This document shows positions 32,173 through 36,847 of a stretch of DNA of 37,025 nucleotides, one piece after another (position 1 is the stretch's first letter; every line of letters starts with the position of its first letter). Under the pieces are notes generated by a model. That model was not told the DNA's origin. It worked only from the letters and a program-made list of their open reading frames with translations, and ran no database searches. Position numbers and translations under genes: made by a program. The stretch spans positions 1 to 37,025 of IMG/VR virus record IMGVR_UViG_3300010413_000092; one strand, written 5' to 3'. This DNA comes from a virus.

Positions 32173-34587
32173 TTAAGCTGCAGATCTCGTGATCAAAAAC
32201 CGCTCGTCAATCTTCATCTTTTTGGCGAGCATGGTAATGACAAAGCGCTGATTGATTCCCCTGATTTGCATGTCATTCAATTTCTTTTCCGTTTTATAAT
32301 AATGGCGGAACCGCTCTACTTCATGATCGAGATAGATATCTGCAGCGCATGAAGCCAGAACCCGGCAATCGGTTGGTTCATTATATCGCCCGCGATTGTC
32401 ATATTCACCATTTTTAAGCTTTTCTTCTGCTGTCAATCCCTCAAAATATCTCGAAGTATAATCTCGTGGGAAATCCTGAAAACCTGGTGACTGTATATCT
32501 CCGTCTATTCTTGGTATTGATAACAATCCGTACATGCTTTTCTTATACAGCTTCGTTGAGATCGTATAAAGTGTAGTCGTGTCTCCTTCTCCAACTCTGC
32601 TTTTTCGATATCTTATGAAGTTTTGTTGCTGCAGATCGATATTCCTGGCATCTTTAGGCGGAGCAATAATTCGTTCGCCTTTTGACGGATAAGTTTTTCC
32701 CCATCGATGACAAAAGCGGTAAACCATTGGGGCATTATGCCCGGAATCAATCAAACTGAAAACAATCGGAAAAAACATACCATCGGATTCCCGCAAAAAG
32801 CCGAATCCTCCGTTTTTTTGCGTTATTTCGACAGCATAATTATTGAGCTTCTCAAAAGCTTCCGTGAATGCATTATCAGTATGACCATAGAATATTTGGT
32901 AATCAATTGACCAGCCACGATAAGACGGGCCACTGCCGAATATTTCAATTTCGATTCTAGGAAATTTCTTTTCATGAACACTGCCATCTTTTTTTGCTTT
33001 TTCGATCTCTATTTCAAGTTCTTCGCTGCTATATTCTTTCCAGCGTTCAGCCCCTCCCTGGACATCGCCACCGAGCGTTAAGAAGAGAACTCCGTCGGGA
33101 ACCGTCTGAGACGGATATTCTCCTCTGTTCTTCATAACTGTTGCAGAATCAAGTCCGGTTCCCCTTTGTTTATGTGGTTGCCCGGCTTGAAAATTGTCGT
33201 AAGACTTTTTTGCAATTGGATCATCGAGGCCTCTTTCATAAGCTGTTGCAATTTCAAGCCACGACTCAAACATCGAATTAAGAGCATGCAGCGTCATGCT
33301 GTACGTATAAGCGTTTATCGGGTGAGCATCGTTTGGCTTTCTCCACTCACCATCCTGCTGAATCTGAAACTTGCTTTTTTCTTTGAAAGAACGAGCGCAA
33401 TCCTCGCAAACATACACTATTGATGATTCTATGATTCGCCCCCGTTTTGTTCGCCAGTCTAGTCCATAGCCATCCTTATTTCTCACATCCAAAATTTGCA
33501 TATGCCCACAAATTGGACATGGCACAAACCACTGTTCCTGGGTACCCTCAAGAAATTTCTTGAAAACGAGACATGTTTCTTCATCCGTTGGCGTTGATGG
33601 GATCAGACATTTTTTTTCTTCGAGATATGTTTTCAGCCGGGTCCACCCCTGATCAAAAGGACCTCCCTGATTTCCGGTTTCTGTTTTCCATTGGCCTGCC
33701 TCGTCGGCAATAAACAATCGTTTTGATTCCTGCGCCATTCCGGCAGTTGATCGATAAGTCACACCATCCAGGTTGCCGCCTGGAAATTCTTTTGAATATG
33801 TGACATCACCTGTCCTTTGCCCGGCCCTACTTTGAGTTGCTGAAATAAATTCGACACCTAAATCCATTAACATTGGGGTTAATCTTCGCTCAAATGTCTT
33901 TCTAACGCTTTCCTTGTCAGCACCCGCCCATAATATTTCAGTTGGAAGGATTTTTGTATAAAAACAAGTGACGATTTGAGCAAGAAACGACTTCATTGAT
34001 TGCGTTGGCCACATCAAAGTAAGTAATTGACACTTATGATCCGGACCCATCAATTGCAAAGGACGGCGAGCATAAGGGGCATTTCTCAAATCAAGTTTTT
34101 GGCCTTTGTATCTTCCGGCAGGAACTTTAACTGTTTCGGCGAATTGTAATATTGGGCTTAAACATCGGCGGGTAATACGCTTTTCAAGCAGATCCGCGAG
34201 GCGTTCATAATCAGATATCTCGGGTTCAATATCTTTTATTGATCGAACTTCAGGTAGGTGAATATCATCTTTTTGTAAAGGAGCCCACTGAATTTTTGAT
34301 GGTGTATTGATCGATGAAAGGATATGCATATCGATCAATATTTCAATGATCGGGCGATCTCCTGCTATTGTTTGTTGTATTTCTCCAGGTTTTTGGCTTG
34401 ATCGTTGTTCCCAGTAATCGAAGAAATTTTGCAGATATCCGACGCTTTGTAAGATCTTTAAAATAGTATCTGGACTCTTCTTTTCAATGGCGTTCTTGAT
34501 AAGATTTATTTTTTCAAGTTCTTTCGCAGCCGCATTTTTTGAGATGTCAGAAAGTTCCTTGATCGTTTTATTGATTAAATTTATCAT
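32173..34587 (-). CDS. Terminase large subunit, lambda GpA-like
   Basis: The 804-aa protein has the GpA pattern. Its ATPase has a deviant P-loop WPTQSMKS (193-200) and Walker B LFIADE (291-296). A zinc site is formed by CPIC (357-360) and CEDC (394-397). An RNase H-like nuclease follows, beginning GGDVQ with D508, with later ...DSGHNA and DCRVLA segments. GpA of lambda is 641 aa; here about 120 extra residues precede the ATPase domain. It pumps DNA into the procapsid and cuts it, in complex with the small subunit encoded upstream. A weak ribosome site precedes the ATG. Confidence 0.9.
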   Translation of the reverse strand: MINLINKTIKELSDISKNAAAKELEKINLIKNAIEKKSPDTILKILQSVGYLQNFFDYWEQRSSQKPGEIQQTIAGDRPIIEILIDMHILSSINTPSKIQWAPLQKDDIHLPEVRSIKDIEPEISDYERLADLLEKRITRRCLSPILQFAETVKVPAGRYKGQKLDLRNAPYARRPLQLMGPDHKCQLLTLMWPTQSMKSFLAQIVTCFYTKILPTEILWAGADKESVRKTFERRLTPMLMDLGVEFISATQSRAGQRTGDVTYSKEFPGGNLDGVTYRSTAGMAQESKRLFIADEAGQWKTETGNQGGPFDQGWTRLKTYLEEKKCLIPSTPTDEETCLVFKKFLEGTQEQWFVPCPICGHMQILDVRNKDGYGLDWRTKRGRIIESSIVYVCEDCARSFKEKSKFQIQQDGEWRKPNDAHPINAYTYSMTLHALNSMFESWLEIATAYERGLDDPIAKKSYDNFQAGQPHKQRGTGLDSATVMKNRGEYPSQTVPDGVLFLTLGGDVQGGAERWKEYSSEELEIEIEKAKKDGSVHEKKFPRIEIEIFGSGPSYRGWSIDYQIFYGHTDNAFTEAFEKLNNYAVEITQKNGGFGFLRESDGMFFPIVFSLIDSGHNAPMVYRFCHRWGKTYPSKGERIIAPPKDARNIDLQQQNFIRYRKSRVGEGDTTTLYTISTKLYKKSMYGLLSIPRIDGDIQSPGFQDFPRDYTSRYFEGLTAEEKLKNGEYDNRGRYNEPTDCRVLASCAADIYLDHEVERFRHYYKTEKKLNDMQIRGINQRFVITMLAKKMKIDERFLITRSAA

Positions 34588-34597
34588 TTAATAAATC

Positions 34598-34852
34598 TTA
34601 AGAATTCTTTTTGAAATCGCTCCAAGAAACCAACTGGTCATTTATTTTAATTTCATCTTTTTCCGTATAATCACACCAGCGTTGAATAATTACCTGGCAG
34701 TATTTTTCGTCTATCTCCATTCCAAAGCATTTACGGTTTGTTTTTTCGCATGCGATTAGGGTTGTTCCTGAGCCTAAAAACGGATCATAAATTAAATCAT
34801 CTTTTAGGCTGTGATTTGCAATGCCATAAACTAACATTTCTAACGGCTTCAT
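34598..34852 (-). CDS. C-terminal part of the ParB/DNA methyltransferase, separated by a frameshift
   Basis: The 84 residues begin MKPLEMLVYG and contain DPFLGSGTT (23-31), the AdoMet-binding motif I of beta-class N4/N6 methyltransferases, followed by ACEKTNRKCFGMEIDEKYC. These complete the protein that starts at 35889. Its ATG overlaps the premature stop of the upstream part as ATGA, so restart by termination-reinitiation could make a separate AdoMet-binding subunit. The halves would have to assemble for activity. If the 17-bp duplication is removed the two frames fuse into one 424-residue enzyme. Confidence 0.75.
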   Translation of the reverse strand: MKPLEMLVYGIANHSLKDDLIYDPFLGSGTTLIACEKTNRKCFGMEIDEKYCQVIIQRWCDYTEKDEIKINDQLVSWSDFKKNS

Positions 34853-35889
34853 TGTTGGGTGTTCTCTGCTCGCTTTTGGTCTGTCAAAATCCCAAACTGT
34901 TGTTTTTTTTCTGTCGTTGTTTTTTTTCTGTCGTTGTTTTTAATTCTATCCCCTGGTTTCCATCCAAATAAAATTGGTTCATGTTTGTAATGGTATTCCG
35001 AATGGCCGAGAACCATTGAGTCTTTATTCCAAACCATTATTTGCCTCAACCACCCCCTATTAAACCAGTCCTGTGCAAATATCAAATGCAACGGTACCGC
35101 CGGGACCGTTGCCAGTAAATAAGCACCGTCACGGCAAGCCAAATCAACATTGTCAAACCATTTTTTATTTATCAAGCACAGTTCTTCGCGAGAAAGATTA
35201 TCCGATTCAATTTTTAAAGCGTCTTTTGTTTTTCCAACGTAAGAAACACCATAAGGAGGGTCTGTAAAAACCATATCCGCTTTCTGACCATTCATCAAAT
35301 AGGCAACATGCTTCTTATCCGCCGAATCACCACAAAGCAACCGATGATTTCCAAGTTCTATGAGATCTCCTTTTTTAATAACAATATGTTTTGGTTCTTC
35401 TGGTAATTTATTTAAATCCTTTCCTTTTCCGTTGTTTTGATTTAGATCTGGCCAATCAAAATCAGGTATCTCGATCATAGATCTAGCGTCCTCGATATCG
35501 AACTGGATATCGCTGAGATAGTCCTCTATCGCGCTGACATCGATCCAGCTGTTCGACGACTCTTTAAGCAAGAGGAGTTTTTTAGCCTCTTTGATGTTTT
35601 CAGCAAGGCACCTGGTAGCAGGCAAATCTGGTATCTCCCATCCTTCTGCTTCGAGTTGAGCAAAGGCCATCTTGCGGTGGTGAGCGTCAAAGCAATAGAT
35701 ATCGTCGCCATCTATCCAGACTTGTAAGTTATTTACAATTCCGTATTCCGAGATTGACAGAGCAAGCTTGTTGATCTTATCCGGGCTTGTTTTCTTCAGG
35801 CTTTTTCCAGACTCAGTCAACTGCAAGTCTTTCAACACTCGATAGTCGACCTGGATCTCGCCAGTGCACATCACTTTGATTCGTTTCAT
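34849..35889 (-). CDS. ParB-like domain fused to N-terminal half of a DNA methyltransferase
   Basis: Residues 15-115 form a ParB/Srx-type domain (KINKLALSISEYGIVNNLQVWIDGDDIYCFDAHHRKMAFAQL...). Residues 165-310 start a DNA methyltransferase: GDLIELGNHRLLCGDS and then FTDPPYG with DPPY at 210-213, the motif IV of N4-cytosine/N6-adenine enzymes. After residue 325 the frame is lost and a run of out-of-frame codons ends at TGA 34849. A 17-bp tandem duplication at 34903-34936 causes it. AAGGAATC precedes ATG 35889. ParB-methyltransferase fusions are widespread in phages as DNA modification enzymes. Confidence 0.8.
   Translation of the reverse strand: MKRIKVMCTGEIQVDYRVLKDLQLTESGKSLKKTSPDKINKLALSISEYGIVNNLQVWIDGDDIYCFDAHHRKMAFAQLEAEGWEIPDLPATRCLAENIKEAKKLLLLKESSNSWIDVSAIEDYLSDIQFDIEDARSMIEIPDFDWPDLNQNNGKGKDLNKLPEEPKHIVIKKGDLIELGNHRLLCGDSADKKHVAYLMNGQKADMVFTDPPYGVSYVGKTKDALKIESDNLSREELCLINKKWFDNVDLACRDGAYLLATVPAVPLHLIFAQDWFNRGWLRQIMVWNKDSMVLGHSEYHYKHEPILFGWKPGDRIKNNDRKKTTTEKKQQFGILTDQKRAENTQQ
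34903..34936 (-). repeat. 17-bp perfect tandem duplication within the methyltransferase gene
   Basis: The 17-mer TTTTTTTTCTGTCGTTG (plus strand) occurs twice in direct succession. Removing one copy restores the frame and gives VWDFDRPKASREHPTMKPLE, the standard sequence before motif I in this enzyme family. Because 17 is not a multiple of 3, each gain or loss changes the frame. Confidence 0.85.
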
Positions 35890-36004: not shown

Positions 36005-36236
36005 CAGCTGCACCCTTGACTTGATCCGCAAACGATACAAACAAAACAGGTTCCTGTCCTCTGAAATTCTATGCTTCCGCATTGAATACATGGAGGATGA
36101 TCGGATGATTTGACAGGCGATGGCTTTTCAACATGATTTGATGCTCTTTCATATGCTCGTTGTATTCTATCCCTCGCCTCAGCCGCTCATTTTTCAAAAG
36201 ATCAGCAATGTTGTGCTCATTGATATCATAAATCAT
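36004..36236 (-). pseudogene. NrdJ-type zinc-ribbon protein gene with a one-base frame loss
   Basis: ATG 36236 follows AGGAG and starts MIYDINEHNIADLLKNE, then the frame runs to an early stop at 36069. In the -1 frame a second part ends at TGA 36004 and contains CIQCGSIEFQRTGTCFVC and CGSSQGCS, which closely match the C-terminal zinc ribbon of vitamin B12-dependent ribonucleotide reductase and its stand-alone phage relatives. One extra G near 36187 would fuse them into a 77-aa protein. No slippery heptamer lies at the junction, so programmed frameshifting is unlikely. Error or recent mutation are the main options. Confidence 0.55.
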
Positions 36237-36244
36237 TGAATCTC

Positions 36245-36847
36245 CTATTTTTGAGATTGTTTTTTTGCTATCTCTCGCAGCTGATCGCAGGCAGCAATTT
36301 TTGCAATATGTGCACGTTCTCTTAACCAGTCAACAAACTCCTGTTTGATTTTTATTCGTTCTTTGTTCCCAGTTGTCAAGTCGCGCTCAATTTCATCAAA
36401 CTTTGCTGCAAATCCTCTTTCATTTTCGCTAAGCCAGCGATCAAGAAATACCATGATCATTTTGTTAACAGATTCAAATGAGACATACTCGCCACGCTGC
36501 TTGCAAATCTTCCATTCTAAAAGGAGATGCTGATCTTCTTTGAGCTTGCGATCAACATCGAGTCTCTTTTTCTGAGCGTCCTGAACTTTCGTTATGGCAT
36601 TGGTAATCGCTTTGCTTTGCTTGACGGGTTGCCCTGATGGAACACCAGATTTAACGGCTTGCAAGCGTTGATCGGATGGGTTCTTTAAATAAGCTTGCGC
36701 TATTGCTGAGTCAGCATCTATTTTCCCCGTCTCTGCATATGTTTCCAGCCTCGCAGATCCATTTTTATCTGGCCTCAGCGCTTTTGTTATTGCTGGCTTA
36801 GAGACACCGGCCATTCTGGCAAATTTCGCTTTGCTTACTAAGTTCAT
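36245..36847 (-). CDS. Terminase small subunit-like (Nu1-type) protein
   Basis: The 200-aa protein opens with an HTH-like segment (NLVSKAKFARMAGVSKPAITKAL) and AETGKIDADSAIAQAYL, followed by a long charged helical region with EDQHLLLEWKICKQRGEYVSFESVNKMIMVFLDRWLSENERGFAAKFDEIERDLT, as in Nu1/small terminase DNA-binding proteins. It would recognise the packaging site and load the GpA motor. It is first in this leftward block; three small or broken genes separate it from the large subunit, unlike lambda. No ribosome site is obvious before the ATG. Confidence 0.65.
   Translation of the reverse strand: MNLVSKAKFARMAGVSKPAITKALRPDKNGSARLETYAETGKIDADSAIAQAYLKNPSDQRLQAVKSGVPSGQPVKQSKAITNAITKVQDAQKKRLDVDRKLKEDQHLLLEWKICKQRGEYVSFESVNKMIMVFLDRWLSENERGFAAKFDEIERDLTTGNKERIKIKQEFVDWLRERAHIAKIAACDQLREIAKKQSQK

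Follow-up and report, generated by a model that had tools for sequence, protein, structure and literature searches.

Is a phage DNA methyltransferase gene that has been cut into two reading frames by a short tandem duplication a genetic switch, an enzyme made of two subunits, or simply a damaged gene? The gene is found in the 37,025-base IMG/VR virus record IMGVR_UViG_3300010413_000092, which was analyzed in its entirety (the window). On the minus strand, the window codes for the proteins of a tailed phage (large terminase, portal, head protease, major head protein, tail sheath, and tape measure), and the methyltransferase gene sits between a small-terminase-like gene (36245-36847) and the large terminase (32173-34587). 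The N6_N4 methylase profile (N6_N4_Mtase, PF01555) was matched in both halves of the gene, by ORF1 with 2.3e-9 and by the 101-residue C-terminal piece with 1.2e-19, and ORF1 also matched the DNA methyltransferase phrog_498 (5.8e-48) and, weakly, the ParB-like phrog_8071 (8.3e-7). Judged from its sequence, the product is a solitary ParB-like/beta-class N6_N4 DNA methyltransferase of the phage. The order of DPPY before FxGxG is kept, but a frame break separates the two motifs, which the relatives carry in one uninterrupted protein. The final ca. 24 residues of ORF1 lie outside the family frame, and the family frame of the second part is open from 34939, following a TAA at 34942-34940 (Table 1). 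With a probability of roughly 0.6, we read this locus as a recent slippage duplication that disabled the methyltransferase, perhaps leaving it leaky and revertible, that is, as an accident and not as a dedicated switch.

Table 1. Features of the interrupted methyltransferase gene (positions in the window)
Feature	Position	Strand	Description
ORF1, 5' part of the methyltransferase gene	34849..35889	-	346 aa; ParB-like N-terminal region, DPPY catalytic motif
ORF2, 3' part of the methyltransferase gene	34598..34852	-	84 aa, starting at the Met of HPTMKP; DPFLGSGTT (AdoMet-binding motif)
ATGA overlap, 4 bases	34849..34852	-	ORF1 stop and ORF2 start; Met codon of HPTMKP followed by the A that opens the Lys codon
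17-bp tandem array, 2.5 units	34899..34941	.	TRF score 86, 100% match, 43 bp; unit not a multiple of 3
Slippery heptamer A_AAA_AAA, first unit	34921..34927	-	-1 slip gives an uninterrupted 430-residue protein
Slippery heptamer A_AAA_AAA, second unit	34903..34909	-	-1 slip gives an uninterrupted 430-residue protein

The sequence-only reading had described a perfect 17-bp duplication that splits the gene and a 4-bp overlap between the stop of ORF1 and the ATG of ORF2, and both stand: the duplication is present (the interval given for it, 34903-34936, comprises two units in another register), and the two frames run from 35889 to 34849 and from 34852 to 34598. The description was real but incomplete, as it missed the A8 run in each unit and the origin of the ATG in the motif HPTMKP. 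The 26-bp exact self-match of the array is the only one of at least 14 bp in the window (periods of 4 to 100), and the longest self-match among 100 first-order simulated sequences was 13 bp. Deleting one copy does give, as had been claimed, a protein of 424 residues with the family-typical sequence; the one-unit translation contains VWDFDRPKASREHPTMKPLE, with DPPY in the portion covered by ORF1 and DPFLGSGTT in that covered by ORF2. The units of the array are flanked by a 9-bp homology, AAAAACAAC (minus strand), which is present twice in the one-unit sequence, 17 bp apart, so that 17 + 9 makes up the 26-bp self-match. We infer that replication slippage or template switching between these two direct repeats generated the duplication, and this single recent event would have disrupted the gene and left it largely nonfunctional. 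Tandem duplication via slippage between short direct repeats is a process reviewed in PMC13207564. Among the work cited there are the microhomology-mediated tandem duplications of fission yeast (Dan et al. 2021), which are likewise short, bounded by direct repeats, frame-breaking, and in principle revertible; as described there they are fungal, whereas reversion of the phage array is only potential.

The related phages, with which the sequence-only reading had proposed to compare the locus, point to one unit as the ancestral state. We used 160 IMG/VR viral relatives, comprising the 80 loci closest to the gene of the window plus another 80 found using a prophage relative. None of the 160 has a frame shift in the methyltransferase gene, a count obtained with a ranking by alignment score that is biased against recovering broken genes. 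The 17-bp repeat is likewise missing from relatives. Of 120 relatives, 111 have a stretch of 28 or 29 residues from the HEPILFG strand to HPT. The one-unit reading gives 28 residues, the same as in L002 (60% identity) and L003 (47%), which are the closest relatives, while two units plus a slip would give 34. Since none of the viral relatives is frame-shifted and the one-unit loop fits the length of the family, the sequence comparison shows the two-unit state to be derived. Conservation does not drop past the break, with an amino acid identity to L002 of 63% downstream versus 59% upstream, and on both sides the differences from L002 cluster at third codon positions. Therefore, either the break is young or translation still covers the downstream part.

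A single in-frame stop was seen in 3 of the 160 viral relatives (L038, L109, and L169). In L109 (53-1228) and L169 (301-1449), this lone stop stands a few residues past DPPY (DPPYNVAY*GKT and DPPYNVGF*SAS, respectively), for which a nonsense mutation and a reassigned stop codon are possible readings.

The same lack of frame shifts among all relatives would be expected if the break were a sequence error, with the sequenced phage carrying one unit (or the two-unit form being a minor variant) and the gene being intact. The location of the gene less than 2.5 kb from the contig end fits with this, as does the adjacent small gene (36236-36071, minus strand), which also seems to be frame-broken, and because there are two breaks near the contig end we keep sequence error as an unlikely explanation that still carries some weight. 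Against it, the window's large structural genes have uninterrupted, full-length frames, and a clean 17-bp duplication with 9-bp flanking homology is the typical product of slippage. Moreover, the 43-bp array is shorter than an ordinary read, so an assembler should resolve it.

If the duplication is real, as in the reading that we favor, can the broken gene still provide an enzyme? The sequence-only reading had proposed that the ATGA acts as a restart and that the two parts are made as two subunits by reinitiation. However, the ATG of ORF2 is the Met of the conserved family motif HPTMKP, in which Met-Lys is encoded by ATG-AAR, and the ATGA is found at the junction because ATG-AAR always holds a TGA in the frame entered by ORF1. 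The Met of HPTMKP is present in 26 of 47 distinct relatives (the 26 were counted by hand from the table of the 47), and in 14 of the 26 the same TGA would be the first stop after such an insertion. The ATGA is thus a by-product of the HPTMKP codons rather than an independent feature, and it was rejected as evidence of translational coupling. More generally, finding ATGA where a broken gene is interrupted is not in itself a sign of reinitiation, as a Met-Lys motif creates it.

The tripeptide HPT bears directly on the two-subunit proposal. In an alignment of 26 relatives, its His and Thr are invariant and its Pro nearly so. It is missing from both products: ORF1 reads through the HPT codons in a shifted frame, and ORF2 begins downstream of them, with no ATG, GTG, or TTG in the second frame that would allow an earlier start. 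In addition, the Shine-Dalgarno match of ORF2 is weak, at -2.9 kcal/mol, where many of the window's genes reach -6 to -7. A working split enzyme appears unlikely because the conserved HPT is absent from both products. The ATGA overlap of both frames could still be taken as a sign that ORF2 is translated by reinitiation and pairs with ORF1 to form an active methyltransferase, and there are precedents among the C5 enzymes, as M.AquI and M.EcoHK31I are similarly one methyltransferase made as two polypeptides and fragments of other C5 enzymes complement one another (PMC3404938). Nevertheless, these known cases have a different motif order, and the subunits of M.AquI and M.EcoHK31I jointly keep the conserved motifs (PMC3404938), whereas the phage pair loses HPT. 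With the overlap expected from ATG-AAR alone, the proposal is weakened to the point that we regard such an assembly as extremely unlikely.

Two other loci were considered as split-gene relatives and rejected, as AcaML1 has two adjacent methylase genes instead and the Providencia locus carries an insertion. In the Providencia rettgeri plasmid (L091, 1301-2163), an interruption of ca. 860 bases is located directly after HEP, at the strand preceding the loop studied here, with both methyltransferase parts in the same frame number.

Slippage on two in-frame A_AAA_AAA sites would be a better route to full-length protein than a split enzyme. Each 17-bp unit contains an A8 run, and both runs hold this heptamer in the frame of ORF1 (Table 1). 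Transcripts with one A too many in either run likewise encode 430 residues, as 17 + 1 = 18 restores the frame. If ribosomes slip by -1 at these runs, or if the mRNA gains an A there, the disabled gene could possibly yield a small amount of full-length enzyme, which would carry six extra codons in a variable loop. In the AlphaFold model of the L002 protein (mean pLDDT of 75.8), the insertion site corresponds to the loop between predicted strands 235-242 and 258-260. Three relatives (L063, L126, and L147) have much longer insertions in the same loop, which suggests that longer in-frame expansions may be tolerated there. Tolerance of the six extra codons is plausible, given that the site is a predicted loop and that these three relatives hold far larger insertions. 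Loop insertions of ca. 30 or more residues, some of them repeating a TT-V/I motif, are found in L063, L126, L147, and L165.

The expected yield can be approached through known cases. Frameshifting on A_AAA_AAA or poly-A in Escherichia coli reporters amounts to 10% with 7 A, 40% with 9 A, and 63% with 11 A (PMC3711429), and selection against A/T runs in bacterial genomes acts mostly from 9 upward (PMC1088944). The tssM1 gene of Citrobacter rodentium (PMC4256274) shares with the phage gene a premature interruption and an upstream poly-A run, and there an extra-A transcript restores the full length; it differs in that transcript slippage takes place on an 11-A run with ca. 20% efficiency, with function shown and no tandem duplication, whereas the phage gene has 8 A twice and its rescue is predicted. 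The A tracts of the array, with 8 residues, are below the length of at least 9 for which transcript slippage in bacteria is mostly documented (PMC1088944). By analogy with the reporter, tssM1, and genome-run figures, a full-length yield of a few per cent is a reasonable guess, and leaky rescue of the methyltransferase is plausible. A frame-broken gene with A8 runs should therefore be checked for slippage before it is labeled a null pseudogene.

Slippage at these runs could also be more than leakage, with the two-unit state being kept and -1 slippage setting the ratio of short to full-length protein. What is expected of programmed -1 frameshifting, a slippery heptamer together with an open frame that completes the protein, was found at two sites, both A8 runs are correctly framed for a slip into the uninterrupted protein, and tssM1 operates via a poly-A run in like manner (PMC4256274). 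The A_AAA_AAA frameshift genes of the GeneTack magnesium chelatase cluster (PMC3711429) share the -1 frame, the A-only heptamer, and the completing downstream frame, but they are conserved across genera, whereas the phage arrangement is present in a single record and in none of the 160 viral relatives. The tract length is 8, not 9 to 11, and no stimulatory RNA structure beyond chance was found downstream of the slippery sites (z = -0.03 and 0.24). As a specific signal, A_AAA_AAA was rejected, since six other copies are present in the main ORFs of the window, including the large terminase. We consider programmed frameshifting highly improbable here. Pure poly-A slippage needs no downstream RNA structure.

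The array raises, finally, the question of phase variation, in which slippage of the array from two 17-bp units to one and back, or the gain of one A in an A8 run, would toggle the methyltransferase in the phage population. It has what is expected of such a locus, a repeat in a coding region with a unit that is not a multiple of 3; the 26-bp exact tandem repeat and the two A8 runs are slip-prone, every such change shifts the frame, and the repeat could in principle slip back to one unit. Phase-variable methyltransferase genes are well known (PMC3711429), and type III mod genes are likewise methyltransferase genes that carry a slip-prone repeat within their coding sequence. However, the classic phase-variable loci have many short units, and mod genes many short units or long homopolymers, whereas the phage gene has one 17-bp duplication of only 2.5 units in a single record. 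Searches with exact patterns over and beside the duplication and with the terminase turned up neither another record of the phage nor a variant of the locus. Among the prophage relatives, the ParB-methyltransferase frame is broken just before DPPY at a G7 run in Vescimonas fastidiosa (L090, ca. position 1256) and at a G9 run in a Roseomonas marmotae plasmid (L089, ca. position 1340). These poly-G breaks may be true switches, but they could also be homopolymer sequencing errors, so they are only a hint. Phase variation of the phage gene seems quite improbable to us. A double control, with the reversible duplication as the "off" state and the A8 runs partly restoring the enzyme, so that full, low, and no methylation states coexist in the population, is very improbable. 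Should the duplication flip or leak, the phage could vary its own DNA methylation and hence its sensitivity to host restriction.

In the region 36236-36004 (minus strand) next to the methyltransferase gene, the small gene has a start with a good Shine-Dalgarno sequence (MIYDINEHNIADLL...) and an early stop at 36071. A zinc ribbon (CIQCGS...CFVCIVCGSSQGCS; CIQCGSIEFQRTGTCFVCIVCGSSQGCS), with its first Cys at 36090, is located in the frame neighboring that of the small gene, and this conserved frame contains no ATG, GTG, or TTG start. This is a possible second frame break. At 36109-36095 there is a 7-bp repeat with 8-bp spacing, one of a kind of near-tandem run of which the window has 17.
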